DNA of 64,000 nucleotides from a virus (IMGVR_UViG_3300030329_003925:1-64000); one strand, 5' to 3'. Counted from the stretch's first letter, positions 8,080-59,967 are shown. The notes: generated from the letters alone by a model not told the origin. Program-made: numbers and translations.

Positions 8080-8424
8080 TCACACCTCGGGAGTTGTCAT
8101 ATCCAAATCGTCTTCACCAACTTGTGCATCTATAGTAGCAGAAACATAATCGAGGGCGCGTTGAACTCTAGCCATAGGAAAATCTCTTATCTTTTCTCCG
8201 TCACTTGAACTAATCGCTCCACTTTTCATTCCATCACGAATAGATTTGGTCAAGTCGTGTAAGAGACCAATAATTCTTTCAGCTTGTTCATCAAATTCCA
8301 CCAGTTTATTGAGTGGGTCGTAATTTCTAACTTTTGCAACTGGTTCATTGCTTATAACGGGAGAGCCCAATGCAGTATACTCGTTAATCATTTCAATCAA
8401 AAATTCTTTAGTCAGTGTCTTCAC
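8080..8424 (-). CDS. Hypothetical protein with capsid-targeting-like N-terminus (114 aa)
   Basis: Starts M-K-T-L-T-K-E-F-L-I-E-M-I-N-E, close to the T4 capsid-targeting sequence and containing both L-I-E and I-N-E cleavage-type sites. The rest is helical and acidic at the end. Overlaps the next upstream gene by 17 bases. Probably an internal head protein by this inference. Confidence 0.6.
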   Translation of the reverse strand: MKTLTKEFLIEMINEYTALGSPVISNEPVAKVRNYDPLNKLVEFDEQAERIIGLLHDLTKSIRDGMKSGAISSSDGEKIRDFPMARVQRALDYVSATIDAQVGEDDLDMTTPEV

Positions 8425-8719
8425 TTTGCATCCCCTTTACGGTTTTATCGATACTATCAACCATCTCATCAATAGCTACAGTAATATTCATTTCTTCTCC
8501 GGCAAGTTCCGTGTTGATTCCACGAAGCATTTCACCCATGTCCATAATCTGATCACGCATTCCCTCTAACTCTGCCGATATTCGTTCCAACGCCTCGATA
8601 TTTTGTTGCTGTATCTCTTCGGCGGCGGGAGGCTCCGGCTCGTCAATACCAAGCTCTAATTCTTCTTCAGAAATGGTAGCTCGTATCATTTCTCGAATAA
8701 ATTCTTGTGAGAGTTTCAT
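8408..8719 (-). CDS. Hypothetical protein with T4 CTS-like N-terminus (103 aa)
   Basis: The start M-K-L-S-Q-E-F-I-R-E-M matches the T4 internal-protein leader M-K-T-Y-Q-E-F-I-A-E at M-K, Q-E-F-I and E. The remainder is acidic with a long helix (residues 38-75), like a small core or internal protein. Ribosome site TTGGAGAC and an ACTATTTA motif precede it, so it heads an operon. Confidence 0.65.
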   Translation of the reverse strand: MKLSQEFIREMIRATISEEELELGIDEPEPPAAEEIQQQNIEALERISAELEGMRDQIMDMGEMLRGINTELAGEEMNITVAIDEMVDSIDKTVKGMQSEDTD

Positions 8720-8741
8720 ATTTTAAGTCTCCAATACAGTA

Positions 8742-8749
8742 TAAATAGT
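8742..8749 (-). promoter_or_regulatory. ACTATTTA late-type motif
   Basis: TACTATTTATA on the coding strand 23-30 bases before the start of the 8408-8719 gene. Confidence 0.55.
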
Positions 8750-13315: not shown

Positions 13316-13744
13316 TTAATACCATACTGGATTATCGAACCTTTTCATCGTCGAATAAAAATCATCGATAATCTGTCTATCCTCATCACTATAAATACCA
13401 CCGGGAGCAATAATTATTTTGTCATTTCCCACATTCGCTTTGATCTCGGCATTATAAGCCACATGACCAACGGGAACAAGGTCGCGGGAAGGATCTGCAC
13501 TCGGGACAATTACAAAGTCCCAGCCCATATCATCCGCAGGATTTATAAATTCTGACCACTCACCGTAATCGAATAATAGTTCTTTTGGCTCTCCACGAAA
13601 CTTCTTCATAGAGCCTTTGGGAAAATCAATGTGCATCTTCTGGTCTGGGTTGTCGCGGATGATTGCGATCATCTCATCCCTTGTCGGCACAATTGTCTTT
13701 TCTTCGTTCAAGAATTTCTTCCAATTTTCATAAAGCTTTTCCAT
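13316..13744 (-). CDS. Inorganic-pyrophosphatase-like protein with CTS-like N-terminus (142 aa)
   Basis: The first 16 residues, M-E-K-L-Y-E-N-W-K-K-F-L-N-E-E-K, are the W-type leader with an L-N-E site. The remainder has P-A-D-D-M-G-W-D-F-V-I-V, V-G-H-V and D-K-I-I-I-A-P, which resemble the DxxDP-type and late strands of family I pyrophosphatases, but the metal-binding Asp set is incomplete. I call the fold tentatively. Just upstream of the fibre gene. Confidence 0.5.
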   Translation of the reverse strand: MEKLYENWKKFLNEEKTIVPTRDEMIAIIRDNPDQKMHIDFPKGSMKKFRGEPKELLFDYGEWSEFINPADDMGWDFVIVPSADPSRDLVPVGHVAYNAEIKANVGNDKIIIAPGGIYSDEDRQIIDDFYSTMKRFDNPVWY

Positions 13745-15091: not shown

Positions 15092-16606
15092 TTACCACCT
15101 CGATATCGGGTACATCGATGGCGGCGTGCCAGCCCCAATTCTTTGAAGCTCCATATGTTTCTCGGCTACGGCAGCTATTTTCTCGGGAGAGTCTCCAACA
15201 CGGAATTTGCCTTTGGGTCGATTATCGCCAGCAAGTTTAGATAATTTTTCAAGCGTTTTATAGGGAGTTTCTAAATTTCTTGCAATAGCCATTCGAATCC
15301 AACCATTTGCGTCTTCTTCACTGCTAAGACTGCCAAGTTTATCGAGCGTTTCTGGTGGGGTGTTTTCGTTCTTGGCAACAGCGGAGCGAATATACTCTTG
15401 CAGACTCCAATGTGAGTCTCGTTCGCCATCTTCACTCGCGAATGGCATGGATGCAAGCCTAGCCAATACTTTCGGGTACTTGGTCCGAGCCCCCAGTGTG
15501 TGTCGAACGGTTCCATCTTCATCGCCTTCATCGACATCTGCCAACGTCATGTGAATACCTTCTTCTGCGCTGGGGTTAGTGGCAATGTTTCGCCATATCT
15601 GAGTAGGGTTGCTTCCATGATAATGCACTATCAAGTCATATAAGACGCTGCTTGGGGTGTTCTGATTGCCAGCAATGTTTGTCAGCACGCCATCATCGTC
15701 AATGGCGATTGATGCTTGGAGCAGAGACTCTTTTGCCAACTGCTTTAATTCTTCGGGGTCAGTTGAGTTCTCTGCGCGTTCTCGTTTTTTCCAGTCGTTG
15801 ATAACATCATATTTTTCCGCTGCTCCAGTGGCGATTAGCATGTCTACCAATTTAGTGGCTTGCTCAGACTCAACGCTCCAATCATCCTCATCCATAAACT
15901 GTTCAGAGCCAAAATGAAATTGATATCTTGATCCACTCTCTTTGTGCTCGAAATAAAACAGTGGATCTTCTTCTTCGTAATATTGCTCGAAATAATCCAA
16001 GCCGGGAGCGGCAGTACACCATTCAGTACCTTTTCCAAGCTCACAGGCTGCGCCTTTATTGTGGATGGCATAAATTTTCCATTCTTCATCGTCCCGAAAG
16101 ACTTCGGTGCCCTCTTCGGCATCCATATATTTCTTCTCGGCTTGGTATGCCTTTATTTTGGGTTCTGCCTCGGCATAAACGTTCAGGAGATCGTCCAAAG
16201 TGTGTATGGTGAAGATGTCTTTCTTCTCCATGAACCGATGCCACTGAAAATAGAGTTCGAGATAGTGTCTGGTGATTCCAAGAGAGTCAGAAACTTTGGG
16301 ATCCCACAGTGTATCTGCAATTTCCTTATCTTTTAGTCCTCTTGATAAGATCCATTCGAGAGCAGTGCCTCTTTGGTTGTCGTCGAGGTCATCAGGAACC
16401 ATGTGTAACAAAGCTTTGGCGATCAAATCCGCCTTATACTCTATTTCGTTTTTTGAGAGCTTGAGCGTTCTGGATTCTGGATCCCATGCACGATTCTTGA
16501 TAAAGCTGCGCAAAACCTTGGAATTCTCCATACGATCTACCGCTTGTTCAAAAGATATTTCGGTGAGGAGAACGAATTTTCTCCACTCATTGAAGATTTC
16601 TTGCAT
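15092..16606 (-). CDS. CTS-like protein with WCTA motif and LRV-like repeats (504 aa)
   Basis: N-terminal leader M-Q-E-I-F-N-E-W-R-K-F-V-L-L-T-E with an L-T-E site. Around residues 190-205 is C-E-L-G-K-G-T-E-W-C-T-A, a motif seen in many phage hypothetical proteins. Residues about 270-480 carry repeating short helices (N-T-P-P-E-T-L-D-K-L, N-L-E-T-P-Y-K-T-L-E-K-L) like leucine-rich repeat variants. An ACTATTTA motif and a GGG-rich ribosome site precede the ATG. Inferred internal head cargo of unknown activity. Confidence 0.6.
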   Translation of the reverse strand: MQEIFNEWRKFVLLTEISFEQAVDRMENSKVLRSFIKNRAWDPESRTLKLSKNEIEYKADLIAKALLHMVPDDLDDNQRGTALEWILSRGLKDKEIADTLWDPKVSDSLGITRHYLELYFQWHRFMEKKDIFTIHTLDDLLNVYAEAEPKIKAYQAEKKYMDAEEGTEVFRDDEEWKIYAIHNKGAACELGKGTEWCTAAPGLDYFEQYYEEEDPLFYFEHKESGSRYQFHFGSEQFMDEDDWSVESEQATKLVDMLIATGAAEKYDVINDWKKRERAENSTDPEELKQLAKESLLQASIAIDDDGVLTNIAGNQNTPSSVLYDLIVHYHGSNPTQIWRNIATNPSAEEGIHMTLADVDEGDEDGTVRHTLGARTKYPKVLARLASMPFASEDGERDSHWSLQEYIRSAVAKNENTPPETLDKLGSLSSEEDANGWIRMAIARNLETPYKTLEKLSKLAGDNRPKGKFRVGDSPEKIAAVAEKHMELQRIGAGTPPSMYPISRW

Positions 16607-17439: not shown

Positions 17440-18372
17440 TTAAACGTATTCGTCCACGTCTTTTTTGAGAGTGGTTGCGTTCTTCTGAGCTTTTAAAGCC
17501 GCTTGCTTAGCGTCTGGAGAGTTCAGAAAATATGTGTTGACGTTTCGTGACAACTTATCCATCTGGTCATAGATCTCTGTGAGATTGTCACCGAGTTGGT
17601 CGGCATACTTTTGCGCAATCTTTTTAATGTTCTCTCGGGACCCTAAATCGAGTGTCCCCAAGAAATACTCGTCTTTTTCAATGTCTCTCGTATAAATTCC
17701 ACTGCTTAAATCATACGAATCAAAATCTCCCGCAAACCCGCCTTCCCTATTTCCTATCGTAAACGAATAGAAATCAATACTCACGACAGTTCCGGTTTTG
17801 TGCTCTCTATTTTTAAGCGCCACAATATATTTTATTGGCTGCTGATATTTCTCAATTGCCGTTTCCAAGTTTTGCCAAGAGCCCTTGATATATTTGGGAC
17901 CCGCAAACAGCAACTTCAGACTCAGGGGCTGTCCTTCTGCGTCGAGGAGATCTTCAATAGCTTGATAGCGCCCGCCCGGTGTGGGAACCTGACGAGCCTG
18001 ACCCCCTAAAAGCACAGCCAAGATAGATTCGAATAAGAATCCGCCCGTCTTATCGTTAAAATCGTAGATTAAAGATGCAAGAGAGTCCAGAAAAACAAGA
18101 TTGCCGAGAATCTCAGGAATATCCTTGGTGGCTACACAGGCTTCGTCACAATCTTTTACAAACTGCTGAAGAGATGCGATTTTTTCACCCAGCGTGTTAC
18201 CTTTGATTTTGGACGTAAACATTTCAATAATCTGACGATCATCGGTTCCCGGCTCACCCCACTTCTCTGAAATTTTAAAGCTCGGAAGGGAAATGGTTCC
18301 CTTTTCACCGCCTTTTTCCAATTGGGCTTCTTCGGATAGAAATTTATTCCAATTTTCGAATAAGAGATTCAT
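17440..18372 (-). CDS. CTS-like protein, possible PD-(D/E)XK-type nuclease (310 aa)
   Basis: Leader M-N-L-L-F-E-N-W-N-K-F-L-S-E-E with an L-S-E site. Around residues 112-160 are F-E-S-I-L-A-V-L-L-G-G, I-E-D-L-L-D and P-L-S-L-K-L-L, the order and spacing of a restriction-endonuclease-like core (E, D, then xLK). The C-terminus is a helix rich in Lys and Ala. Inferred to be packaged; nuclease activity is a tentative reading. It overlaps the next upstream gene by 4 bases. Confidence 0.5.
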   Translation of the reverse strand: MNLLFENWNKFLSEEAQLEKGGEKGTISLPSFKISEKWGEPGTDDRQIIEMFTSKIKGNTLGEKIASLQQFVKDCDEACVATKDIPEILGNLVFLDSLASLIYDFNDKTGGFLFESILAVLLGGQARQVPTPGGRYQAIEDLLDAEGQPLSLKLLFAGPKYIKGSWQNLETAIEKYQQPIKYIVALKNREHKTGTVVSIDFYSFTIGNREGGFAGDFDSYDLSSGIYTRDIEKDEYFLGTLDLGSRENIKKIAQKYADQLGDNLTEIYDQMDKLSRNVNTYFLNSPDAKQAALKAQKNATTLKKDVDEYV

Positions 18373-18992
18373 TTTTTGACAAGCTCCTTATTAACTATGT
18401 CGTAGCCGTCAACAACGCCAATGTTAAAATAGTCGAAACCGTCCAGAAGTGCTATCTTTTGCTCGGCAAAGTCCCCCAGCATATTATATACGCTCACCTG
18501 CCCAACCACTTCTGTAAACAAGGCTGGTGCTGCTGCTGGGGGTAAAGTCTTTAAGTGTGCATTGTAGGCTGCATACTCGCCCCTCAAGGTAAATTCTGTC
18601 CCCCTTGAGCCAATTGCTTGAATATGTGACATATAATCGTGGATGGCTCTAAACTTGGCATTCGTAACTTCGTCAAAGATGTCGTGATCAGCATCAATGG
18701 TGGCGATTCTCATCTTGCCGGTTGTATTTACTTCATCACGCAGTTCTTGTGCCGATTCATATGGGTGATAGTCTACGAACTCCACGTCCACTCTTGATTG
18801 AATCTGTTTAAACATCTTTTCGATAAAAGGAACCATAGCTTCGAAACTGGGAACAGCCCTTTGTTCAAATTTTGGAGCAGCCATATAAGCATCGGCAACA
18901 AGTTGAGCATACAAGTCCCAGCCGTTAGGACCGGGCTTGAGCATCAGCTTCTCGTTGAGGAAACCTCTCCAATTTTCAAAAAGGTTCTGCAC
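18369..18992 (-). CDS. CTS-like protein with HDYMSH and GEY motifs (207 aa)
   Basis: Leader M-Q-N-L-F-E-N-W-R-G-F-L-N-E-K with L-N-E. The C-terminal half has F-R-A-I-H-D-Y-M-S-H-I and later L-R-G-E-Y-A-A-Y and L-F-T-E-V-V-G-Q, a spacing that could bind a metal (H...H...E...E). Members of this family occur in other phages, but I know no function. Confidence 0.55.
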   Translation of the reverse strand: MQNLFENWRGFLNEKLMLKPGPNGWDLYAQLVADAYMAAPKFEQRAVPSFEAMVPFIEKMFKQIQSRVDVEFVDYHPYESAQELRDEVNTTGKMRIATIDADHDIFDEVTNAKFRAIHDYMSHIQAIGSRGTEFTLRGEYAAYNAHLKTLPPAAAPALFTEVVGQVSVYNMLGDFAEQKIALLDGFDYFNIGVVDGYDIVNKELVKK

Positions 18993-18997: not shown

Positions 18998-20026
18998 TTA
19001 CCCTTTCTGCTTTTGGGAAGGGGCTTTCGTGCCATTCTCCATCAAGCTGGACGGGTCTTGGGTGCTTAGGAATTCGATCACTTCTTCGCGATTTTCTAGC
19101 TCCCGCTTACCTTTTCCGGTAAACCCTATCTGAGCCATGTCTTCGGCTCCTTCGGCTTCAAGGCGATCTATGAGTTCTTCGTCGCTTAAATCGGAGAAAT
19201 CACCTACGGGCAAAACCATTCCAAGGTTGCCCTCTCGGATATTGCGAAGCTCCTCTCTTATTATTTCTTCAAGTTGCTCACTAATTTTTTTCGCCCGCCT
19301 TGTCACAGGCTTGCGAGGTCTAGAACTCGCCTTGGTTGCCGCATGTGAGCGTTGTGCGCCCATTCCTTGCGTCCGTGGAAATTCTTCACCTTTCTCGGGC
19401 GTCATCATAAGCTCCTGTTCGGCTTCATAAGCATCGTGGTCGGAAATATAGCGGTCTTCAAGTCCTCTGGTATATTCCGATGGATCATAATCTGGCTTGT
19501 AAGAACGAGCTTCTTCATCTTGAGCCTGCTGCTCTAGTTCGGCAGTCAAGCTATGATGCATTTCTTCTAACTCTTCGACGCTCATCTCATCGAACTTAAT
19601 CCAGCGAGGTCGAATGCCGTTCACATACTTGTAAAGATCATAAATAGATGCCGATAGAGCATCATGAAGTTCTTCGGGAGGAATGGGTTTCCACTCTTCT
19701 TCCGACGCAGTATCAGCCTCTAGAGCTTCTTTTACAAGTTTTGAAACATTAATTTTCTTCAAAGCTTCTTTTGCGAGGGCTGCTGGGTTGCCACGCACAC
19801 CCGCTGCCCTTCCATAGACGGCTTGTCTCTGACCAATATTCAGAGGATCTTCCCCCGTAAAGGCAGCAGAAAGATAATCAATACTTAAATCTAATTTTTT
19901 CATCTGATTCAGTAACTGAGACAGGAGGTCTTCGAGTCCCGATGCTACAAAGCGTACTTCGCCACTTTCATTCGACTCAAAGCCTTCATATAAAAGTTTT
20001 TTTGCTTGTGCTTTGCTGATTTTCAT
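18998..20026 (-). CDS. K-type CTS protein with an internal second leader copy (342 aa)
   Basis: Begins M-K-I-S-K-A-Q-A-K-K-L-L-Y-E-G. Around residues 244-262 there is a second leader-like helix, K-I-S-E-Q-L-E-E-I-I-R-E-E-L, with an I-R-E site. The centre is charged, with a basic stretch near residue 235. Cleavage at both sites would release two fragments, like T4 internal proteins. No enzyme motif recognised. Confidence 0.55.
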   Translation of the reverse strand: MKISKAQAKKLLYEGFESNESGEVRFVASGLEDLLSQLLNQMKKLDLSIDYLSAAFTGEDPLNIGQRQAVYGRAAGVRGNPAALAKEALKKINVSKLVKEALEADTASEEEWKPIPPEELHDALSASIYDLYKYVNGIRPRWIKFDEMSVEELEEMHHSLTAELEQQAQDEEARSYKPDYDPSEYTRGLEDRYISDHDAYEAEQELMMTPEKGEEFPRTQGMGAQRSHAATKASSRPRKPVTRRAKKISEQLEEIIREELRNIREGNLGMVLPVGDFSDLSDEELIDRLEAEGAEDMAQIGFTGKGKRELENREEVIEFLSTQDPSSLMENGTKAPSQKQKG

Positions 20027-20253: not shown

Positions 20254-20367
20254 TCAAGTGTGTTCTAGGTCTTTTAGCTCATCTTCGAGTTCTTTTTTTC
20301 TCTTTGCTTGAGCTTTTGTAAGTTCTTCCTTGATGAGATTTCTAAGCTGTGTTTTTGTGATTTTCAT
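20254..20367 (-). CDS. 37-residue peptide that is almost only a K-type leader
   Basis: M-K-I-T-K-T-Q-L-R-N-L-I-K-E-E-L followed by about 20 charged helical residues and stop. It abuts the genes on both sides, in line with an operon. It may be a minimal internal head peptide or a decayed cargo gene that kept only its targeting part. Confidence 0.6.
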   Translation of the reverse strand: MKITKTQLRNLIKEELTKAQAKRKKELEDELKDLEHT

Positions 20368-20368
20368 T

Positions 20369-20587
20369 TTATGCTCCTATCGCTTTTTTCTGGGCGGGTG
20401 TGAGGATATTGTCTTGGATTGCTCTGATAACCTCGTCGGCTGTGGTATTGTAGGCTTTCGTAACCCTGCCTATTAAGCCCTCTATCTCGTCACCAACTGC
20501 CACGCTTAACATTGGTCCAGTGTTTTCCGTCACGGATGCAAGTTCTTCCTTGATAATCTGTTTAAGTTGTGCTTTTGTGATTTTCAT
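20369..20587 (-). CDS. K-type CTS protein (72 aa)
   Basis: Leader M-K-I-T-K-A-Q-L-K-Q-I-I-K-E-E-L, then A-S-V-T-E-N, then a short helical domain ending in A-Q-K-K-A-I-G-A. Its leader DNA is nearly identical to those at 20254, 26047 and 26355. Stop and start abut those of its neighbours. Confidence 0.6.
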   Translation of the reverse strand: MKITKAQLKQIIKEELASVTENTGPMLSVAVGDEIEGLIGRVTKAYNTTADEVIRAIQDNILTPAQKKAIGA

Positions 20588-22813: not shown

Positions 22814-22857
22814 TAAGCCCCCCTTATTATGCATGTCTATAAGTACATAGGGGCTAC
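22814..22857 (-). promoter_or_regulatory. Inverted repeat enclosing the VWA lipoprotein Shine-Dalgarno
   Basis: AGCCCC and GGGGCT, about 28 bases apart, pair across an AT-rich loop, and the 3' arm holds the GGGGGG before the ATG at 22810. Third member of the set at 17371 and 21439; its loop is longer. Confidence 0.5.
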
Positions 22858-23309
22858 TTTTCTATTTCTCTTATTGTGCCGCAAACATTTATAGGCTCTA
22901 TGGGTTCATAGTCGCTTATTTGGAAGTCATTTGACTCCATACTTTTCGCTTCTACAAGGGGGTTTGTAGCTATCGTAATATGAGGGTGGTTGGGACCCCT
23001 CATCGGAAGTGCAACGCCTTCTAGGTCCACTAGAGCGCTTGCTACGCGGTCGTTTAAAGCGATACCCACAACTTTGACGCATAAACCAGTCCCAAGCCAG
23101 CGAGAAGGTAGCCTTCTCTTCATTTCTGGAGGGCTGATGATGGTCATGTGGTGTGCAATGGGCGTCCAGCCCTCTGGGGCATACGGAACCAAGGCTCGGT
23201 GACCCAAATCGTTGAGGACAAGCCCTGTATACTCGATATGTTTAGCCATATCGGTCCCAAGGGAGATCTCGGACAGATGATCGCGCCAATTTTCAAGTAG
23301 GAGCTTCAT
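22854..23309 (-). CDS. 2H phosphoesterase with CTS-like N-terminus (151 aa)
   Basis: Leader M-K-L-L-L-E-N-W-R-D-H-L-S-E-I with L-S-E. Two HxT motifs, H-H-M-T-I (about residue 54) and P-H-I-T-I (about 111), are the catalytic pairs of 2H phosphoesterases such as LigT, the Trl1 cyclic phosphodiesterase domain and T4 Acb1. The first strand, Y-T-G-L-V-L, also fits. It may open cyclic phosphates on RNA ends or cyclic oligonucleotide signals; if packaged, it could act against host CBASS-type immunity at injection. That last step is inference. Confidence 0.72.
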   Translation of the reverse strand: MKLLLENWRDHLSEISLGTDMAKHIEYTGLVLNDLGHRALVPYAPEGWTPIAHHMTIISPPEMKRRLPSRWLGTGLCVKVVGIALNDRVASALVDLEGVALPMRGPNHPHITIATNPLVEAKSMESNDFQISDYEPIEPINVCGTIREIEK

Positions 23310-23695
23310 TCTACTCCTCCGAACATTCTCTTGAATATTTTGGGTGTATCTGGATTATCCAGATCTAAAATCTTTGCTTTTATCGTCTCAACCTTTTGGT
23401 TGATAGCCTTTTGTAGTCGATGGTTGCCGTCTAAGACATACTTAAACTCGCCACCTTTTCTTACAACTATGATAGGAAACTCTAAACTTGCTGCTTTAAC
23501 TCGCTCTTCACCGCGTGTTGGAAGAGGAGGTATCTGATTAGAAAGTTCTAAAACATTAAGATCAACTGTTTTATTACCCAAGAAGTCATCAATCTCACCG
23601 AGTGTGACCTTTTCTTCGTCGGTTTCCCACGATGTATCACGCCAACTTTTGTTTTCGTTGATAAACTTGTTCCAGTTTTCAAGTATGAGTTTCAT
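23306..23695 (-). CDS. ParB/Srx-like domain protein with CTS-like N-terminus (129 aa)
   Basis: Leader M-K-L-I-L-E-N-W-N-K-F-I-N-E-N with I-N-E. The segment F-P-I-I-V-V-R-K-G-G followed by V-L-D-G-N-H-R-L-Q-K-A is the GxHR-type core of ParB/sulfiredoxin-like nucleotide-binding domains. It overlaps the genes on both sides by 4 bases. DNA-binding or ATPase function cannot be told apart. Confidence 0.65.
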   Translation of the reverse strand: MKLILENWNKFINENKSWRDTSWETDEEKVTLGEIDDFLGNKTVDLNVLELSNQIPPLPTRGEERVKAASLEFPIIVVRKGGEFKYVLDGNHRLQKAINQKVETIKAKILDLDNPDTPKIFKRMFGGVE

Positions 23696-24891
23696 TGCCC
23701 AATAAATCCTACGATATCGTTATAAGTATTGTCCAGTTGTCGATTATGGATGGCAGCAAGAACTTTTCTGAAAGCATCACCTATCTGTTGTCCTCGGAAT
23801 CCTAGTTCCATCATCTCTCTGCCGTTAATGTCGAGTTCCTTGGGAGAGAGAGGAAACTGTAATGCCTCTTCAATCTTGTCGGCTTGCTGAGTCATGCCAG
23901 CCTGCCGAAGAACACTAGCAATCAAGGGGAGTCTCCCTCGTTGTCCGCCCCCATACTCATAAACTTCTTTTGTATCCTCGGCTGCTTCCTGAGCAAGTTC
24001 AAGATATTGAACCATTTCGTTGGTGGGGCGCATCATATTGTGGTCGCCCCCTTCCAGAAAGAACGCAATGAAGTTGCCGAGTGTCTTGTCTTGGTTGTTG
24101 CCCCCGACCTCGATTGCGTAGGGATTAAAATCTTCTCCAAATATTGTTTTCCCGATTCCTGTCTCCTTCAAGAGCGAAACCAGTATATGGGCGTTGCCCG
24201 AGCCTTTCGTCCACGCCTTTGCAAGCTCCATAAACAGGCGTTCACCTGCAACCGACCCAATATCTCCCACATTTTTCTTGATGGCGTCTAAAGTTTCAGG
24301 CTCAATGGCGAAACCAAAGCGAGTGGCGAACTGAATAGCACGAAACATTCTCAAGGGATCTTCTTTAAATCTCTCATTAGGATCTCCCACGGTTCTGATA
24401 ATTTTATTTTTTAAGTCTTCCTGTCCTCCGAACAAATCTATGATATTGCCTTCGGAGTCTTTGGCGAGAGCATTGATGGTAAAGTCTCTTCTGCCCAAAT
24501 CAGACTCCACAGGAGCATTGGGATCTGTCTCCACATCAAACTCTGTGTGTTTCTCGCCCGTCTTTGTTTCGGAGGTTCTGGGAATGGCAAAGTCAAATTC
24601 CTCTCCATCAATTGTTGCAGTCACCACCCCAAATGCTTGCCCTACCTCTTTTACTTTTCCGAGAGGAGACAAAACAGAAACAATATCAGAGAGTGACAAG
24701 CCACGCACAAGGAAATCAACATCTTTGGATGGGGGAGTGTCAGGCAGGAGTTCATCTCGCACTGCTCCTCCTACAATATAACTTTCACCACCGCCCTGCT
24801 CTAGTGCTGCTTCAATCTTTTCAATTGTAGCTGGATCGACTGCTTCATTGAGTTTCACAAACTCTCGCCAATTTTCAAGTAGGAGTTTCAT
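23692..24891 (-). CDS. CCA-adding enzyme / tRNA nucleotidyltransferase with CTS-like N-terminus (399 aa)
   Basis: Adds or repairs CCA at tRNA 3' ends. After the leader M-K-L-L-L-E-N-W-R-E-F-V-K-L-N-E-A (L-N-E then A, the exact T4 cleavage context) come the class II motifs: Y-I-V-G-G-A-V-R-D, D-V-D-F-L-V (catalytic DxD), R-R-D-F-T-I-N-A-L and E-D-P-L-R-M-F-R-A. The C-terminal half is helical. I reject the longer start at 24954 because it runs through a terminator hairpin. The tmRNA, tRNA-Met and tRNA-Leu of this window lack encoded CCA and would be its substrates. Confidence 0.9.
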   Translation of the reverse strand: MKLLLENWREFVKLNEAVDPATIEKIEAALEQGGGESYIVGGAVRDELLPDTPPSKDVDFLVRGLSLSDIVSVLSPLGKVKEVGQAFGVVTATIDGEEFDFAIPRTSETKTGEKHTEFDVETDPNAPVESDLGRRDFTINALAKDSEGNIIDLFGGQEDLKNKIIRTVGDPNERFKEDPLRMFRAIQFATRFGFAIEPETLDAIKKNVGDIGSVAGERLFMELAKAWTKGSGNAHILVSLLKETGIGKTIFGEDFNPYAIEVGGNNQDKTLGNFIAFFLEGGDHNMMRPTNEMVQYLELAQEAAEDTKEVYEYGGGQRGRLPLIASVLRQAGMTQQADKIEEALQFPLSPKELDINGREMMELGFRGQQIGDAFRKVLAAIHNRQLDNTYNDIVGFIGQ

Positions 24892-25270: not shown

Positions 25271-25348
25271 AAAGCCCCACCGAGAGGACATTCACTATTC
25301 ATTCCAGATTACGCATTCTGCGTATTTTTTTACGCAGTCTGGGGCTTT
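25271..25348 (-). terminator. Nested inverted repeats after the 25330 gene
   Basis: Minus strand: an outer stem AAAGCCCC/GGGGCTTT encloses an inner stem CTGCGTA/TACGCAG; the outer stem ends with TTTTGAAG. It overlaps the stop of the 25330-26019 gene. On the plus strand the inner repeat is followed by seven T, so it may also stop antisense transcription. Confidence 0.4.
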
Positions 25349-26019
25349 CCGACCATGATCTTCATGTGTTTTTCGCCGCCAATGTCTCGGGTATACCATC
25401 CATTGTAGCCATCGTATTTGCCCTCTGGGTGAGGACCGATCCATTCGATCTCTTTTCCAAGAGTCTTGCGAACTGTTTCTTCGTCATTTACGGGAGGAAC
25501 GCCGTGATACTTAATCAGCACATGTGCTAGACCTTTGGAAACCTCGCCATAGAACCCATCATCAAACATCATTTCAGCGGTCTTGTTGATGTATCTCTTA
25601 ATAGCCTCTTGGGAACCATCGTGACCACCGGCACCCAATTTCTTGCCCTTATTGATGCGCAACACATCAGGCTTCGGGTCACCATCAATATCCAGTGCAA
25701 GATAATTGTCGTATTTGCCCGGTAGATCTTGAGCCTTCTGGAGTTTTATGTGCCCTCCGATGCTCTTGTAAGCAGTATTAATAAGATTGAATAGCTCTCC
25801 CGCTATGTTAACGTCGCCGCCTTGCTCCGTCGCCGCTTGACGTATATCTTCGACTGGCACGGTAAACCATTCATCCTTGGCAATCCCATAATCTTCCCAT
25901 TTTTTCTCTTGGAGACCATCTGGCTCCATATATGGATGGTCATCAAGATATTTTTTCATGCGAGGATCAACTTTTTCCTCTTTCATGAATTTGCGCCAGT
26001 TTTCGAATAGGAGTTTCAT
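25330..26019 (-). CDS. CTS-like protein, GNAT-like candidate (229 aa)
   Basis: Leader M-K-L-L-F-E-N-W-R-K-F-M-K-E-E (M-K-E in place of L-x-E). The rest has D-G-D-P-K-P-D-V-L-R and K-K-L-G-A-G-G-H-D-G-S, where the glycine-rich step could be an acyl-CoA loop, then W-Y-T-R-D-I-G-G near the end. Similar proteins occur in other marine phages. The acetyltransferase call is weak. Confidence 0.5.
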   Translation of the reverse strand: MKLLFENWRKFMKEEKVDPRMKKYLDDHPYMEPDGLQEKKWEDYGIAKDEWFTVPVEDIRQAATEQGGDVNIAGELFNLINTAYKSIGGHIKLQKAQDLPGKYDNYLALDIDGDPKPDVLRINKGKKLGAGGHDGSQEAIKRYINKTAEMMFDDGFYGEVSKGLAHVLIKYHGVPPVNDEETVRKTLGKEIEWIGPHPEGKYDGYNGWYTRDIGGEKHMKIMVGKPQTA

Positions 26020-46236: not shown

Positions 46237-46248
46237 AAAAGTTACAAA

Positions 46249-46778: not shown

Positions 46779-46876
46779 ATGCACAGCATCAACACCAATA
46801 GAGCATAGCCCAGAGGCATCATCAAAATACATCCAATCGCGTCTTTAATCTGCTCGTCTCTGCCGTACTCATCCAT
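46775..46876 (-). CDS. Single-pass membrane microprotein (33 aa)
   Basis: M-D-E-Y-G-R-D-E-Q-I-K-D-A-I-G-C then a hydrophobic Met/Leu-rich segment. GAAGAATGG precedes, and the stop is coupled to the next gene. Confidence 0.5.
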   Translation of the reverse strand: MDEYGRDEQIKDAIGCILMMPLGYALLVLMLCM

Positions 46877-47659: not shown

Positions 47660-48607
47660 CTATTGGTGTGCCATTGACATCTGCGAATCATAAGAGTCAA
47701 TGCGGAGTTTCGACAAACGCTCAAGATAATCATTTCGTCGGAGAACCTTGAAAGCTAAGTTTTCGAAGGAGTATTCGCCTTCGCGCTCTAAGCCACTGGA
47801 TCGGAATCTTTTTATCTTCTCCCTCACCTTCTCGCCATACTCCATCGCGCCATCGTAATCGCCCTCGTCAAACAACTTCTGCACGTCGTCGATCATATCC
47901 ATCGTCGAAGCTGCTTTCTGCTTGACTGCTTCTCGGTCAATCTCTTTGTCTTCGCGTCGAGGTTTGACCACCCAGTCGTCGTTAAGCAAGGAATAAACAC
48001 CACTTGAAAAGTGAGCATCGTTTACGTCTTGGACGTAAAGTTCCACGTCGTAACCCTTCACCTTGATGTCGTGCTGCCTGTTCCAGTTAGACTTGGTTTG
48101 CATGAACAAGTCTCGGACCAATTCTTCATTCTCGTCAACGTCCTGATAATCCAAGATGATGTGAACGTCAAGGTCGGAGAACTTCGACCAATTATAATTT
48201 GCCAGCGAGCCTGTCAGCGTGATGTCTTTTATCTCGGCTTTAACTCCCAGCTTCTCGTAGAAGTCTTGGGCAATTTGTAAAAGTCGATCACGGATTGCTG
48301 GGTCTATTTTGTCGTCGGAGTTCCAGACTTTTCGGTCGAGGGTTTCGTGAACCACAAAGCTGGACAGATCGACGCTATCGGGGTCTGCCCCTTCTTCGAA
48401 TCGTAACCTGTCTGTGCCAAACCTCTTGACCTTGCCCGTGAAGGGTGGTCCCGACTTCTTATTTTTAATACCACCTTGGGTCGTGTAGATGTCGTTTTTT
48501 CGGCGTAGCTTCTTGTATCTCTTTTGAGCCGCACTCTTGAAAGGGGTTGGTTCTGCCGCCTCGTGCAAAGTTACAAAGTCATTCCAAAATGTTTCGAAGT
48601 CCTTCAT
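47660..48607 (-). CDS. CTS-like nucleotidyltransferase (315 aa)
   Basis: Leader M-K-D-F-E-T-F-W-N-D-F-V-T-L-H-E-A (L-H-E then A, matching the T4 cleavage rule). Near residues 135-155 is L-T-G-S-L-A-N...S-D-L-D-V-H-I-I-L and later Y-D-V-E-L-Y-V, the GS-x(n)-DxD and third Asp/Glu of pol-beta-type nucleotidyltransferases. C-terminal helices carry charged repeats. Substrate unknown; probably packaged if the leader works as inferred. The F-V-T of the leader is encoded by the GTTACAAA octamer. Confidence 0.65.
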   Translation of the reverse strand: MKDFETFWNDFVTLHEAAEPTPFKSAAQKRYKKLRRKNDIYTTQGGIKNKKSGPPFTGKVKRFGTDRLRFEEGADPDSVDLSSFVVHETLDRKVWNSDDKIDPAIRDRLLQIAQDFYEKLGVKAEIKDITLTGSLANYNWSKFSDLDVHIILDYQDVDENEELVRDLFMQTKSNWNRQHDIKVKGYDVELYVQDVNDAHFSSGVYSLLNDDWVVKPRREDKEIDREAVKQKAASTMDMIDDVQKLFDEGDYDGAMEYGEKVREKIKRFRSSGLEREGEYSFENLAFKVLRRNDYLERLSKLRIDSYDSQMSMAHQ

Positions 48608-48616: not shown

Positions 48617-48940
48617 TCACTCAGTTGGTGGTCCCAAAGCATTATGGGCAGCTAAGGTTTTCACAAAAGCCTCCATGACGCCCCTTCGAAGATAGAAATG
48701 GAGAGTAGCCAAAGTCTCGTCCTCCGCAATTTCTTTTCGCATCTCCTGAAGTCGTCTCCTAATCTGGTCAATCCTCAAGCCACCGTAGCCTTGAACTAAT
48801 ACCTCGGCTTTCTCTGGGCTTCTTTCGTCGCCTTTTGGTTCGTAATACATGGGGTTTCCACCCTCATCATATTCGACTTCTACGAGACTTGTAAGTTCTT
48901 CTTGGATGAGTTTCCTTATTTTGGACTTGGCGATTTTCAC
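48617..48940 (-). CDS. K-type CTS protein (107 aa)
   Basis: Leader M-K-I-A-K-S-K-I-R-K-L-I-Q-E-E-L with I-Q-E. The body has E-Y-D-E-G-G-N-P-M-Y and helical segments. No domain recognised. Overlaps the next gene upstream by 4 bases. Confidence 0.58.
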   Translation of the reverse strand: MKIAKSKIRKLIQEELTSLVEVEYDEGGNPMYYEPKGDERSPEKAEVLVQGYGGLRIDQIRRRLQEMRKEIAEDETLATLHFYLRRGVMEAFVKTLAAHNALGPPTE

Positions 48941-49719
48941 TTATAGTCTCCCTGCTTGGCGTTTATAGCAAAGTTGAGTTGGCGAACCGTCTTCACCTCA
49001 TCTGCGGTTCTCTTTTTCTTTTTCATGAGTGCAGCTTTTTTCTTTTTGAGTTGGGCAATCGTGTAATCGGTCCACTCTCCTGTGGACTCGATGTCTTGGA
49101 GAAACTTGTCATCATTCTCCTTGTTGCTTTCATCATACTGGTAACGGGGGCGACGATAGCCTTTATATTTGCTTCGATAGCCACTATCACGGCGCGGGTA
49201 GTCTCCGCTCCGACGTTGATATGACCTTATGCACTCCTCATATTCTTCCCGTGTAAGACCACCTGCTTTGTAATCCTTGTAGCAGTCGGCTTCTTCTTCG
49301 TTTATTGGCTTGCCACCTTCGTTGACTGGGGTGTCACCAACCATGTCTTGCCCGCCATCCATATCCTGATAGCCAGTTGCCTCATTGTAAATAAAGTTCA
49401 CCAGCCAGTTCTTTTCTTTACGCGCCAAAGCATCTTTGGCTAACGCAGTAGCACCGGCTTCGTAGCCCAGACGCGCCAAGAGCGCAGCCAGCATGGGCAC
49501 CGCGAAGGAGGTTCCCATCTTCACCATAGCTCGCCACAACAAGTCAAGGTTCTCTGGTGTGAGATTCTGCATGAGCGTGTCGATGTCTTCATTGAGTTGC
49601 TGTTCTTCCAGTTGAGCACGGATGCCTTCGCCAAACATTTCCTCTGCTTCTTCGTTGGTCAGGACGACTTCAAGCTCCTCTTTTATAATCTGCTTGAGTT
49701 GCTTCTTTGTGATTTTCAT
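48937..49719 (-). CDS. K-type CTS protein (260 aa)
   Basis: Leader M-K-I-T-K-K-Q-L-K-Q-I-I-K-E-E-L. Residues about 70-110 form a hydrophobic helix pair (F-A-V-P-M-L-A-A-L-L-A), and residues 170-200 an Arg/Tyr/Gly-rich stretch. C-terminal basic helices. A membrane-active injected protein is conceivable; no family recognised. Confidence 0.58.
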   Translation of the reverse strand: MKITKKQLKQIIKEELEVVLTNEEAEEMFGEGIRAQLEEQQLNEDIDTLMQNLTPENLDLLWRAMVKMGTSFAVPMLAALLARLGYEAGATALAKDALARKEKNWLVNFIYNEATGYQDMDGGQDMVGDTPVNEGGKPINEEEADCYKDYKAGGLTREEYEECIRSYQRRSGDYPRRDSGYRSKYKGYRRPRYQYDESNKENDDKFLQDIESTGEWTDYTIAQLKKKKAALMKKKKRTADEVKTVRQLNFAINAKQGDYK

Positions 49720-49949
49720 TTTTCTTCGCCTTCAGATATGATTAGCTCATCAGACAGGCGAGCAATCTCATCTTGGTGACCCTTTGGCGCATAGTCAATG
49801 CACATGGCAACCAGCCCGCCCAATTCTGGTCCCAGCTTGTCGTGGAGCCATTGGGAGATCGCTGCATGGAAGTGAGGTCCATCCTTTTCAGCGAGAGCCT
49901 CGATCTCTTCCTTGATAAGTTGCTTAATTCTTGCTTTTGTAATCTTCAT
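49716..49949 (-). CDS. K-type CTS protein (77 aa)
   Basis: Leader M-K-I-T-K-A-R-I-K-Q-L-I-K-E-E-I, with I-K-E, then A-L-A-E. The body has a short hydrophobic helix. First gene of a four-gene cargo operon down to 47660, after an ACTATTTA motif. Confidence 0.6.
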   Translation of the reverse strand: MKITKARIKQLIKEEIEALAEKDGPHFHAAISQWLHDKLGPELGGLVAMCIDYAPKGHQDEIARLSDELIISEGEEK

Positions 49950-51187: not shown

Positions 51188-51637
51188 TTACCACTCCTTG
51201 CAGGACCAGTAGCCTGCTGTGAGTTTATCTTTTTTGTCATCGCAGTTATGACGCGCACGGAAATTGGACTTTCTGTCTGGATCATCGCTCTTGTCTTCCA
51301 AGTTGGCATCGCCAAACCGAACAATACTCTCTTTGCCGTCCTGACAGCCTTTAACAACCTTTTGCTTCTTTCCGTATCCCGGCTCTCCTTTGCGAATGTA
51401 GCGGGGACTATTGCATTTCATCCGGTCCTTGTCGGTCCCCTCTGCTTCTTCAAGGGACTCTTCCTTGGTAGCTTTTTTCCATGACTTTTCGTCTGGATAG
51501 TCCTTGTCCCCCGGCTTTGCAGGGGCTTCGCCACGCGCTCTTTTGGCACGGATATTCTGAAACAGATTAGAACCTTCAGCGAGTGCCTCGATTTCTTCCC
51601 TTATGAGGGATTCAAGAAATTCACGTTTCATGGTCAA
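51188..51637 (-). CDS. CTS-like protein with DUF5872-type end (149 aa)
   Basis: Leader M-T-M-K-R-E-F-L-E-S-L-I-R-E-E-I with I-R-E, then A-L-A-E-G as in the 49716 protein. The Lys-rich middle is followed by a C-terminal domain with C-N-S-P, F-R-A-R-H-N-C and Y-W-S-C-K-E-W, a cysteine-containing domain that I have seen in phage and giant-virus proteins. Basic and possibly DNA-binding. Confidence 0.58.
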   Translation of the reverse strand: MTMKREFLESLIREEIEALAEGSNLFQNIRAKRARGEAPAKPGDKDYPDEKSWKKATKEESLEEAEGTDKDRMKCNSPRYIRKGEPGYGKKQKVVKGCQDGKESIVRFGDANLEDKSDDPDRKSNFRARHNCDDKKDKLTAGYWSCKEW

Positions 51638-52194
51638 GCACTCTTCTTAGCCTGAGCAGTGGCAATCGCCATCTTCTTGTCCATTGGCATATCAGGATTG
51701 TCTTTCTCCATAGCCTTGGCAATCTCTTCTCGTTTGTCTTCTTCTGCGTCGGTCAGCTTTCTTTCCGCAAGTTCGTCTTGATCAACAAGGTGGTCGTACT
51801 CACCGCGTTCCCACTTCTGGTCTTCGATCCATTCCTCGTCAACAAAGCCTTGACTGACTTTCGACATGGCAGCTTCAGCAGCAACACCAAGCTCACGAAC
51901 CATCGCCATAGCCTCTTTGCCAGAGATACCTCCGGTGATAGCCATGTTCCCAAGAGCCGCAAGGAAGCCATCAAGGTTGTCAACCTCGCCCGTGGGAAGC
52001 CTGATGTTTCCACCAGTCAATATGGAATCGAACAACTCCTCCGTCACGTCTGTGGTCCACTGGTCCATCATGCGTTCTTGGTCGGTCATCTCGCTTCCGT
52101 AATTAGGAGAGAGGTCTGTTAGCTCATAAGCCTCAAGCACCTTTGCTGCCTCTTCTTTGATGATTTGTCTAATTTCTTTGGTTGTGATTTTCAT
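51634..52194 (-). CDS. K-type CTS protein (186 aa)
   Basis: Leader M-K-I-T-T-K-E-I-R-Q-I-I-K-E-E-A (I-K-E). The middle is helical, and the end (about 155-186) carries the D-N-P-D-M-P-M-D-K-K-M-A-I-A-T-A-Q segment common in phage internal proteins. It heads a five-gene operon after an ACTATTTA motif. Confidence 0.6.
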   Translation of the reverse strand: MKITTKEIRQIIKEEAAKVLEAYELTDLSPNYGSEMTDQERMMDQWTTDVTEELFDSILTGGNIRLPTGEVDNLDGFLAALGNMAITGGISGKEAMAMVRELGVAAEAAMSKVSQGFVDEEWIEDQKWERGEYDHLVDQDELAERKLTDAEEDKREEIAKAMEKDNPDMPMDKKMAIATAQAKKSA

Positions 52195-52227: not shown

Positions 52228-52881
52228 TCATTCCGCCCCAAAACCCAATTCTTTTAACTCTGCGATAGCCGAGGCTGAATCTCCAAAGGCACACCGAATG
52301 GCGATACCTCCATGCTCTGCCCAAGGAATCAAGTTCTTGTCCCAATCGTCGATCAAGATGTTGGGTCTTCCATCTGTGGTTGCCCACTTCCACTTATCGT
52401 GGCTCATGTAAATCTTGGTTGGCTGCGGGTTTAGGTGACTGCTTATCCATGCTCGTTTGCCCTCCTGTGACCCTTCGTCCATCGGAGAAGTGAGGATGTA
52501 AGGGCTATAGGGCGAGATAAAACTCCACAATTCCTGACCTCCCGGCATCTCTGGGAGTTCTGACCAGAACCTAACATCGTCACCAAAATTCTTATACATG
52601 TAGTTGCGAACTGCTTTACTGTTACTTCCACCGCCCTTTCTCAAGTCCGTCACATCAATTTGTAACTCTCGATCAGCGGCGACCAGAGCTTTACGCACCC
52701 TTCCTATGTTTGTAATTCCCCCCGTAGGCTTGCGGTCGGGCTTAGAGTCGTCGAGGAGTTCAATGTTAATCTGATCGACGACCCCCTTTTCAAAGTCCAC
52801 AAGGACGCCATCCATGTCGCAATAGATTTGCGGCAACCGATTTTGCTCCTCGTTGAGAAAATTTAACCAACCCTTATACAT
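52228..52881 (-). CDS. HAD-like 5'(3')-nucleotidase-type protein with short CTS (217 aa)
   Basis: Leader M-Y-K-G-W-L-N-F-L-N-E-E-Q with L-N-E. HAD motif I Y-C-D-M-D-G-V-L-V-D-F-E at residues 19-30, then I-L-T-S and D-D-W-D-K-N (motif IV). This is the 5'-nucleotidase, deoxy, type C layout common in phages. It would dephosphorylate nucleotides. The start at 52881 overlaps the stop of the upstream gene (TAATG). Confidence 0.7.
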   Translation of the reverse strand: MYKGWLNFLNEEQNRLPQIYCDMDGVLVDFEKGVVDQINIELLDDSKPDRKPTGGITNIGRVRKALVAADRELQIDVTDLRKGGGSNSKAVRNYMYKNFGDDVRFWSELPEMPGGQELWSFISPYSPYILTSPMDEGSQEGKRAWISSHLNPQPTKIYMSHDKWKWATTDGRPNILIDDWDKNLIPWAEHGGIAIRCAFGDSASAIAELKELGFGAE

Positions 52882-53666
52882 TATAACTGCCTCAAGCTCC
52901 GTGGGATATATCTCATCACGATGCAACCGGGGATTTCTCGACTGTTAATGGTCGGAATAAGAATCTGCTTGACGTAGGTTTGCCCCGTCATGGCTTCTTT
53001 AGCTGGGTGAAATTTCACCCGAATAGTCGAGACGATCCCCCCTCCGCTCTTTTGGGATTGGAGGGAGGATACTATTGTCACGCCGGGAATTGAGCGAATG
53101 TCAGCCAAGGTATCGTCAATTCCAGCTTGCCTCTGAATCTTGATGACAAGCTCGGCTTCAAACACTCTTAGCTTCTCTTCTTCAGCCTCGTTAAGAAGGT
53201 CGTACAATTCCTCATCATCGTAGTAATCGTCTTCGCTTTCCAGCTTGTCCGTTACCGATGCTTCAGATTCTATCTCGACGATAGCGTGGGGGGGTACATC
53301 ACCAACGAGATAATATGCGTCGAAGTCGGGTAGCTCCATATCGTCGTGAACTTCTGGTGTAGGCTTCATCTTAGCGATATTAACCTTTACAAATACAAAG
53401 GGAGGCTGTGCGCCTCCAAATATACCAGAGTCAGGACGAGAAAACGCAGCCATAAAAGCAGAGTCTTGCGAAGAAAAAAGATAAACTCTCTTCTCTTTGG
53501 CATCCTCTTCGCTGTATGAATAATCACGGTCACCGGCTTGAGAGGAACCACGAATACCGTGGGCTTTAATACCCTCTTCGTTTTCCGCACCAGTTACATG
53601 ATAGTACATTCTTGGCTTTTGATATTGAGCCTCTTCCCTAAACTTCTGCCAACCTTCTAAAATCAT
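52881..53666 (-). CDS. CTS-like protein with ART-like N-terminal motif (261 aa)
   Basis: Leader M-I-L-E-G-W-Q-K-F-R-E-E-A (R-E-E in place of L-x-E). Residues about 20-60 read Y-Y-H-V-T-G-A...G-I-R-G and V-Y-L-F-S-S, a pattern seen at the NAD site of DarT/RNA 2'-phosphotransferase-like ADP-ribosyltransferases. The C-terminus has T-I-R-V-K-F-H. T4 Alt, the packaged ADP-ribosyltransferase, would be the parallel, but the catalytic Glu/Arg set is not established. Start chosen for GGAGAAGTCT before the ATG. Confidence 0.5.
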   Translation of the reverse strand: MILEGWQKFREEAQYQKPRMYYHVTGAENEEGIKAHGIRGSSQAGDRDYSYSEEDAKEKRVYLFSSQDSAFMAAFSRPDSGIFGGAQPPFVFVKVNIAKMKPTPEVHDDMELPDFDAYYLVGDVPPHAIVEIESEASVTDKLESEDDYYDDEELYDLLNEAEEEKLRVFEAELVIKIQRQAGIDDTLADIRSIPGVTIVSSLQSQKSGGGIVSTIRVKFHPAKEAMTGQTYVKQILIPTINSREIPGCIVMRYIPRSLRQL

Positions 53667-57903: not shown

Positions 57904-58817
57904 TATATACCTCTTTCTTTTGGATATGGTAGGTTCGTTAAATGCGGGTTCAACTCAGCAAAAAGACCACGCAAATGCTTTGTCTCTTTCTTCGTAGCCC
58001 CTAAAATGTAAGCATATTTATGCTTTGGCTTAGTGTCCCTAACCAAACAACTTTGCCTGTATCTCTTTTCTTCTGCCTTGATGTCTAACTTAACCTGTTC
58101 TGGCACCTTTGTCCAGTCTGGTGAATACTTTTTCATCCATTTTTTGAACTGCTCTCGACCAACCCCTATGTTATCCGCATACATATAATACTTCGACTTG
58201 TGTCGGAAGTTGCGGTCAGAGAACCAACCTCGCTCTGGGTGCGCTGGGTCGAAGTATTGCTTTGAGGTTCCTGATGTTTGACCAAGGTACAAGAAGTTGC
58301 AAGCCTGATAGATTGTCCCAAGCTCTTTTGCTTCGGGGTCCGAGTAAGCCGTGAAGACTCTGAAGTCTGTATTCTTTACCATCCACCTCACAGACCCCAT
58401 GACGAGCCTTGAGTTCAATCCCTTGGGTGTCCACGCTGCACAGGCACCACGGGAAATTAGTTTCTCCATGTCTCGATTCTCTTTTCCGAGCAAGTTAGAA
58501 AATGTATTCGGGGTTGCCATCACTACTGCGCCACCCATGTAAGGACCGAACATCGCGGAGAACCGATGGGTAGGGCGAGCAGGCATCTTGCCAAGCCATT
58601 CATACTTCTCGATGAAATGTCGAACCTTCTCGCAGCCCTCCGAATCACTCTTGTCGATATATTCGACATCAAAGTCGCGAGGCTGAAAAGCAGCAATCAT
58701 CGAACTGCTCATATTGAGGCTCTCTAGGTCGTGTCGAAACCAAGTCTTCTTGACCTCGTATTGCCAACAATGGGAGCCGCTGTATTCCTTGAAGCGGTTA
58801 TAAACTTCTTCTTTCAA
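57903..58817 (-). CDS. Mom-like protein, putative DNA modification enzyme (304 aa)
   Basis: Residues about 70-180 show the Mom pattern: Y-E-W-L-G, a G-G-A-V-V step, then C-A-A-W-T-P-K-G-L-N-S-R, F-T-A-Y-S-D-P-E-A-K and G-T-I-Y-Q-A-C-N-F-L-Y-L-G. Phage Mu Mom is a GNAT-fold enzyme that changes adenine and protects DNA from restriction. C-terminal basic helices may bind DNA. Coupled to groEL. Activity inferred. Confidence 0.68.
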   Translation of the reverse strand: MKEEVYNRFKEYSGSHCWQYEVKKTWFRHDLESLNMSSSMIAAFQPRDFDVEYIDKSDSEGCEKVRHFIEKYEWLGKMPARPTHRFSAMFGPYMGGAVVMATPNTFSNLLGKENRDMEKLISRGACAAWTPKGLNSRLVMGSVRWMVKNTDFRVFTAYSDPEAKELGTIYQACNFLYLGQTSGTSKQYFDPAHPERGWFSDRNFRHKSKYYMYADNIGVGREQFKKWMKKYSPDWTKVPEQVKLDIKAEEKRYRQSCLVRDTKPKHKYAYILGATKKETKHLRGLFAELNPHLTNLPYPKERGI

Positions 58818-58824
58818 CGATACC

Positions 58825-59967
58825 TCACATAATCTTGGAAATGATTTTCTCTAAGTCTTCTCGATTTCGCAAATTGAGAGGGCTTTTCTCCAGCCTCCCC
58901 TTAATCTTGATAGCCACGTTAAACGAAGTTGCACTGTTTGTGCCCATCGAAGGCTTTAACCGAAGTCGGACGAGTGACTGAAGACCGCTCTCCGAAAACA
59001 ATGGGATGCCAAACTCTTTTGCGTCGGCAGCGTTGAGAGCATAAAGACCCCAATTGCCAAGCTGAATAAACCTGTCTCCCTTGTCGGCGTAATAGTTAGA
59101 AATCATCTCAAATGGGAACTCTATCTTCTTGTCCGTCTTGCCCCCAAACCATTCGGCTTCCAACTGACGCTTGAATTCTCCGGTGGTGGGCGAGCGCTTC
59201 AAGCCTGTTATGACTTGCCCTACCACGTTTTCCCTATCTGCACTCATGAGATTACGCATCTGGAACCTCTCATCGTAAGGCTCTGACATCACATAACTCT
59301 TTTGCACATAGTCGTCAACGTAGTTCTCATAGATGGGCATGAAGACCTTCATGTTTTCTAAGAACTTGGACGTAGTAGAAGGCTCCCATCTTCCGTCGCC
59401 CGTATCATAGCGAAGCCGAAACTGCCCAAAGTCGGCAGAGATGCCGGTCTTTACTTCGATAGTTAGTTCACCGTTAGGTCCAGAAAGAGTCAAATCCGAA
59501 CCATGCCCAGAGCCAGCACTCTCCGCACTGATCGCTTTACCAGCGATTTCTTGTGCCATTTTTACAAATTTCTCTTCCTCGTGCGCTCCAACATCTGCCG
59601 CCCTCTCGCCAAACGGGGGCTTAAAAAGAATATACACCGAACCCTCTTGGCGATCAATCCGCTGAAGCCTTCCTAAAGTGGAGCCGTCATCGCGATGCTC
59701 GTAGCCCAATGGTGCAAGCATTTGTGTCATCTTGTCCATGACGTTGACGCGCTCGGGCGAACGAATTCTTATAACATTGTAGCGAGGCAGGTCATAGTGG
59801 TATCCCTCTCTCTCGACAATATCAAGTGCCTTCTGAAGTTCTACGCCAGTATCGCGCACGAATACTTCGGATAACTCCCCCTCTACCATTTCAAACAAAA
59901 GGGAGCTAACATCCTTCTTGGGTGCAGGCTCATAGTATTCTTTTACCAGTTGCTCAAATGATTTCAT
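58825..59967 (-). CDS. CTS-like PD-(D/E)XK nuclease-type protein (380 aa)
   Basis: Leader M-K-S-F-E-Q-L-V-K-E-Y-Y-E resembles the T4 leader M-K-T-Y-Q-E-F-I-A-E. Around residues 165-185 is H-G-S-D-L-T-L-S-G-P-N-G-E-L-T-I-E-V-K-T-G, the SD...E-x-K core of restriction-type nucleases, with an upstream Glu in A-H-E-E-E-K. ATG at 59967 overlaps the end of the ClpP-like gene; the longer frame lacks a ribosome site. Confidence 0.62.
   Translation of the reverse strand: MKSFEQLVKEYYEPAPKKDVSSLLFEMVEGELSEVFVRDTGVELQKALDIVEREGYHYDLPRYNVIRIRSPERVNVMDKMTQMLAPLGYEHRDDGSTLGRLQRIDRQEGSVYILFKPPFGERAADVGAHEEEKFVKMAQEIAGKAISAESAGSGHGSDLTLSGPNGELTIEVKTGISADFGQFRLRYDTGDGRWEPSTTSKFLENMKVFMPIYENYVDDYVQKSYVMSEPYDERFQMRNLMSADRENVVGQVITGLKRSPTTGEFKRQLEAEWFGGKTDKKIEFPFEMISNYYADKGDRFIQLGNWGLYALNAADAKEFGIPLFSESGLQSLVRLRLKPSMGTNSATSFNVAIKIKGRLEKSPLNLRNREDLEKIISKIM

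Follow-up and report, generated by a model that had tools for sequence, protein, structure and literature searches.

In bacteriophage T4, diverse internal proteins have only a capsid-targeting sequence (CTS) in common (PMC3012670). The T4 cleavage rule is L/I-x-E, and in the CTS of IPIII residues 4 and 7 serve targeting and residues 8 and 10 processing (PMC9026906). In the T4 record, the corresponding sites read MKTYQEFIAE before A (IPII and IPIII), NELLRE before S (gp24), LIAE before A (gp22) and FLTE before A (gp23). The ejection proteins of phiKZ and SPN3US are injected head proteins whose propeptides a homologous protease removes by cutting on the C-terminal side of Glu (PMC5694885), and the polyvalent proteins are a predicted virion-packaged multi-enzyme cargo (Iyer et al. 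2017, PMC5512222).

We found two types of N-terminal leader, W and K, on many unrelated genes in a 64-kb stretch of DNA (the window), taken from a 77,219-bp IMG/VR virus fragment. They resemble the T4 system (IPI, IPII, IPIII, Alt; gp21) in being candidate propeptides of 10-20 residues on otherwise unrelated proteins, in their L/I-x-E end and in the gp21-type S77 protease, encoded here in relatives. T4 MKTYQEFIAE and the W leader share K2, E6 and an F-[I/L]-x-E ending, whereas W is four residues longer with an invariant Trp, and K is a separate Lys/Glu helix. W and K profiles gave no sequence match to the T4 CTS, so that the likeness is one of pattern. T4 has a handful of such leaders, whereas the highest counts in our profile searches were 13 W plus 6 K for one contig of 102 kb and 23-26 K for jumbo contigs of 242-289 kb, and the predicted cargo here, unlike that of T4, includes RNA-related enzymes.

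Cleavage after Glu and injection, known for phiKZ and SPN3US, are predicted here; the propeptides of those phages differ in mostly having 100 or more residues and the motif A/S-x-E (PMC5694885, PMC9026906), and an identical short N-terminus occurs in one pair only, gp53/gp54. In contrast to the polyvalent proteins, each enzyme is here a separate gene with its own leader. Judged from sequence, the W/K system appears to be a new and far larger form of the T4 CTS system. Neither the exact leader strings nor reports of W or K leaders appeared in the literature searched, from which subscription papers were mostly absent, and the Far-T4 paper is silent on capsid targeting.

Two leader families in the window

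The W leader (consensus MKLLLENWRKFLNE) starts 12 window genes and the K leader (MKITKAQLKQIIKEEL) 10-11, in both cases at true gene starts and before unrelated bodies; the K count of 10 includes a 37-aa ORF (gene 20254) with its ATG at 20367. All leaders listed in the initial annotation were reproduced by translation of the genes, with starts corrected to 24891 (gene 23692), 51631 (51188), 52881 (52228) and 53666 (52881). All leader genes lie on the (-) strand.

W leaders open the genes at 13316..13744 (MEKLYENWKKFLNE; body without family match, homologue L175 beginning MKLLLENWRKFLNE) and 17440..18372 (MNLLFENWNKFLSE; no family above cut-off), both scored by weight matrix. The leader at 15092..16606 (MQEIFNEWRKFVLLTE), with shifted L-x-E, precedes a leucine-rich-repeat-variant-like body; in its homologues L154 and L272 the W leader is of canonical form. 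At 18369..18992, a GTG start is followed by FENWRGFLNE and then by KLMLKPGPNGW of a phrog_3170 body. Three overlapping genes encode a 2H phosphoesterase-like protein with a weak Pfam match (22854..23309; MKLLLENWRDHLSE, then ISLGTD), a protein called ParB-like by homology only (23306..23695; MKLILENWNKFINE) and a CCA-adding enzyme (23692..24891; MKLLLENWREFVKLNE, then AVDPATIEK; PolyA_pol, E=1.9e-22). The gene at 25330..26019 (MKLLFENWRKFMKE) has a W-bearing homologue, L216, and another, L099, preceded by the K-like KITKRQLRRIIRE, and that at 26594..27649 (MKLLIENFRKFLKE) has leader-bearing homologues in G017 and G023. A divergent W leader (MKDFETFWNDFVTLHE, then AAEP) precedes a Pol-beta nucleotidyltransferase at 47660..48607. 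Two short forms are MYKGWLNFLNE on a HAD / 5'-3' deoxyribonucleotidase-like protein (52228..52881; phrog_2643, E=2.4e-21), whose homologues carry canonical W leaders, and the W-like MILEGWQKFREE at 52881..53666.

K leaders seen by translation and weight matrix open the genes at 26047..26358 (MKITKAKLKQVIKEEL), 26355..26588 (MKITKAKLKQIIKEEL), 48617..48940 (VKIAKSKIRKLIQEEL) and 49716..49949 (MKITKARIKQLIKEEIEALAE), and those at 20369..20587 (MKITKAQLKQIIKEEL) and 48937..49719 (MKITKKQLKQIIKEELEVVLTNEE) reached 49.2 and 48.6 bits. The 37-aa ORF at 20254..20367 begins MKITKTQLRNLIKEEL. Translation and homologues identified the leader at 18998..20026 (MKISKAQAKKLLYE) and a divergent one at 51188..51631 (MKREFLESLIREEIEALAE), and all three approaches that at 51634..52194 (MKITTKEIRQIIKEE). 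The protein at 18998-20026 also has an internal K-like stretch, KKISEQLEEIIREELRNIREG.

The third group of the initial annotation, close to the T4 CTS, proved weak. The starts at 8080..8424 (VKTLTKEFLIE) and 58825..59967 (MKSFEQLVKE; kept as MKSFEQLVKEYYEPA in L002) are each retained by one homologue, and no homologues were found for 8408..8719 (MKLSQEFIRE) or the internal start at 7375.

Chance similarity of the leaders was rejected. With position weight matrices trained solely on other contigs, 15 window starts scored 24.7-49.2 bits, all on the coding strand, against a top score of 2.1 bits in first-order Markov windows (n=20); profile searches of the 77-kb record recovered 8 leaders of the W type and 9 of the K type. 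Six leaders scored low on their own (15092, 18998, 47660, 51188, 52228 and 52881). Homologues of five of these begin with leaders of the same type, those of 51188 in part only.

Spread and conservation beyond the window

Degenerate DNA patterns matched at least 120 IMG/VR stretches for each of W and K, and the reversed pattern had zero matches among 40 large records. A strict W pattern matched only four times in a collection of one genome per bacterial or archaeal species, versus at least 120 viral stretches. A canonical W leader (MKTIFENWNNFLNESG; L497 1747) lies on the 2.8-Mb chromosome of a WOR-3 MAG (CP070664), possibly as a prophage, a mis-assembly or a transfer.

Among the fetched loci, the leader proteins with a length of 76 aa or more number 575 and fall into 360 body families, nine of which have both W and K members. 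Conservation covers W residues 1-14 and K residues 1-16, fading by 22, and drops to background level beyond. In a MAFFT alignment of 104 representative W proteins, M1, K2, E6 and W8 were the only invariant columns; since the search pattern itself fixed some invariant W positions, the informative point is that no further column is conserved.

With the W and K profiles, no leader was detected in T4, in RM378 or in three T4-like contigs used as controls, and a Flavobacterium phage gave one borderline K match (E=0.004). In tblastn searches of INPHARED, affected by short queries and the low-complexity filter, the leader peptides gave no K match, and the W matches, confined to microviruses, were discarded as spurious. 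No relatives were found for the 1156-aa protein.

A cleavage-like ending

The [L/I]-x-E within residues 6-18, noted in the initial annotation for nearly all leaders, was confirmed in 10 of 12 W, 10 of 10 K and three of the four T4-like window leaders. The exceptions are 25330 (M-K-E), 52881 (none at these residues) and 58825 (V-K-E). Three of the W leaders in the window have two extra residues (FVLLTE, FVKLNE, FVTLHE) and retain L-x-E.

When the search pattern stopped at F11, so that Glu was not demanded, about 81% of W leaders ended in [LIVM]-x-E: of 118 leaders, 95 have the motif at residues 12-14, a further 10 have it at another place between 12 and 18, and 13 lack it at residues 12-18. E14 is present in 146 of 147 K leaders. 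A second [LI]-x-E, its Glu peaking at positions 21/22, occurs 150 times (63 + 87) among 342 K leaders. In the major capsid protein (MCP, Gp23), the propeptide region closes with L-[KR]-E in every one of the 27 sequences.

Exchange of leaders on homologous bodies

Homologous bodies swap W, K, a 9-residue T4-like leader or no leader, often at or near [LIVM]-x-E, and several switch between W and K from phage to phage. The CCA-adding enzyme of the window joins LNE to AVDPATIEK, and in its relatives L428-431 a W leader ending TRLHE is followed by AIDPATIEK. L433 and L434 instead have the 9-residue MKIIKFITE before AISQNTIKK, and L432 has a different leader ending in SLSE before APSQETIGK. In a second family, MKLIMENWRKYLQE precedes GGNIF in one phage, whereas M directly precedes GGNIF in another. 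Leaders also vary in the alignment of the 18369 family, where the body starts with KLMLKPGPNGW or a close variant right after x-E. The leader of the 47660 nucleotidyltransferase is kept in L002, and 39 other relatives are leaderless and align mainly from residues 61-93. Many swap alignments begin elsewhere than at the exact predicted cut.

In other phages, relatives of the CCA enzyme (L435-L450, L452-L454) form a module of multi-enzyme ORFs of 746-2608 aa, in which kinase-like, ART-like and acetyltransferase-like parts were seen by eye. These ORFs resemble polyvalent proteins, and the same cargo may thus have two delivery architectures, an own leader or a multi-enzyme ORF.

Prohead protease and head genes of the virus clade

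Neither an S77 protease nor any recognisable head module was found in the 77-kb fragment. The initial annotation had named a genome without prohead protease as a refutation, and the fragment taken by itself is such a case, but relatives sharing its cargo do encode a gp21-type protease. S77 (PF03420) is encoded in 25 of 30 leader-bearing contigs above 100 kb and went undetected in five, all possibly fragments; the nearest relatives G041-G043 encode it too. Gp23 was detected in 27 of 30 records searched. T4-like control contigs without W or K leaders also have S77, and the protease, although expected by the model, is therefore not specific and no predictor of these leaders.

By gene order and HMM, terminase, Gp20-type portal, S77 and Gp23 occur in this order in G001, G024, G027 and G043, the portal being assigned by its position and similarity in this order and not by HMM. 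In G043, four W-leader genes, among them the homologue of the 2H gene 22854 adjoining that of the CCA gene, share the strand of the terminase and precede it closely, with two short genes between; portal, core genes, protease, a K-leader gene, scaffold and capsid follow. W or K genes also flank the protease in G024, G056 and G060.

An IMP dehydrogenase (IMPDH) gene, conserved in many leader-bearing contigs, lies at 62448-63485 of the window beside a glutamine-synthetase-like gene (record 63487-64584, L001). It shows 55-62% identity to its counterparts in eight of these relatives' records. These matches, together with the leader-bearing 26594 homologues in G017 and G023, which also encode S77 and Gp23, place the fragment with this clade. 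The virus is probably a large, marine, T4-related phage of bacteria, whose host and habitat we infer.

Predicted cargo behind the leaders

The functions first proposed for the bodies held in part. The CCA-adding enzyme is firm; the nucleotidyltransferase (47660; just below the Pfam cut-off), 2H and HAD calls are supported to varying degree, and the ParB-like call is indirect. Nuclease-like, pyrophosphatase-like and ART-like bodies were not confirmed, in the ART-like case because the AlphaFold model of 52881 (pLDDT 44, two sequences) was too poor for a fold search; that of 26594, with pLDDT 53 from five sequences, was likewise inadequate.

Among 104 W families, we found PolyA_pol, tRNA-ligase CPD, HAD_SAK, Nudix, RNase_T and zeta-toxin/AAA kinases, as well as ParB_N, GDSL, kinase and GNAT domains, and most families had no match. 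K-type proteins are short, and most of them matched no family. In a published survey of jumbo phages, CCA-adding enzymes and their relatives are interpreted as a means of repairing RNA in defence against RNases of the host (PMC7824862), and early RNA repair could by analogy be a reasonable role for these proteins.

Proposed mechanism and its alternatives

Capsid targeting followed by removal by a gp21-type protease is, in our view, the best reading of the leaders and a highly probable one. Leader modularity, the [L/I/V]-x-E ending, the swaps, S77 in relatives, leader genes in the head cluster and L-x-E in the capsid propeptide speak in favour of the T4-like capsid targeting first suggested for this locus, which is supported in part; docking, cleavage, packaging and injection we infer. 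W and K would be two families of capsid-targeting propeptides in a large T4-related phage clade, probably a marine one. As the prohead assembles, the N-terminal helix would dock the protein onto the scaffold core, and the S77 protease would then cut after [L/I/V]-x-E, at residue 14 or 16 of W and at 14 and/or 21-22 of K. The mature protein would remain in the head and be ejected with the DNA, and the nucleic-acid enzymes (CCA-adding, nucleotidyltransferase, 2H, HAD) could immediately process RNA that has been damaged or attacked. Some of the small K-type proteins may be core components.

T4 gp67, gp68 and gp22 enter the prohead as core or scaffold proteins and are degraded or left behind. The leaders could mark such partners of the prohead core or scaffold, with the same fate, and for the K type this deserves attention: the protease has short genes of the K-leader or K-like kind on its flanks, the place of gp67/gp68 in T4, and K proteins are small with family matches mostly absent. 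We nevertheless consider it unlikely as a general explanation, given that a scaffold role is not apparent for the folded enzymes (CCA, Nudix, RNase_T, HAD) that make up many of the W bodies and that the cargo varies from phage to phage.

Still less probable is that the leaders are docking helices for a target outside the head, such as the host membrane, a replication compartment, a polymerase or the tail, with a fortuitous [L/I/V]-x-E. The amphipathic-looking Lys/Glu helix of K would suit such a role, and the head-packaging reading is drawn from sequence rather than directly from virions. The motif, however, is kept even in leaders two residues longer, homology breaks near it, leader genes lie in the head cluster and the MCP obeys the same rule. 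A recently copied DNA element, either a recombination cassette or a translation-start element, would fit the clustered leader genes that overlap head to tail and a synonymous difference somewhat under saturation, yet it was rejected as very improbable and largely refuted, because 40-46% of the residues shared by window leaders differ synonymously, near the 57-59% expected from genome codon usage, and the conserved thing is thus the peptide.

In uncultivated, probably marine, T4-related phages, capsid targeting by removable leaders could amount to a general way of loading heads: with exchangeable tags, a member of any one of hundreds of protein families could be taken in, including a nucleic-acid/RNA-repair and nucleotide-processing kit that is delivered before phage gene expression; we regard the chances of this wider reading as evenly balanced. 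Since the tags look like removable head-packaging labels, hundreds of uncharacterised viral proteins may travel as cargo and be injected as infection begins. If so, a sequence of 14-22 residues would predict which of the many uncharacterised proteins of abundant phages are virion-borne and active during the initial minutes of infection, when counter-defence and take-over get decided. The leader would then serve as a decoder, telling injected from synthesised products among hypothetical phage proteins. It would also extend to hundreds of families a mechanism known from a handful of proteins in T4, and would provide new packaging tags for protein delivery.

Neighbouring features of the window

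A ClpP-like phage protease (59954-60622; PF00574, E=7.4e-32) adjoins the 58825 gene and lies near an acidic protein at 61414-62043. The latter begins MSKLLKEAQIRRFMKLANIDAL, an unusual N-terminus kept in its homologues L244 and L085, and is possibly a third leader or a structural protein. A Mom-like DNA modification protein is encoded at 57903-58817 (PF25680, E=9.9e-10), and the region 33125-47111 holds many small proteins with (M)xVGDLVR, a repeated small family. A tmRNA gene with the tag ANNNNHFELALAA (1445-1773) is located near two tRNA genes, and a TadE-like pilus protein (438-854; PF07811, E=5.6e-11) is present in this phage record.
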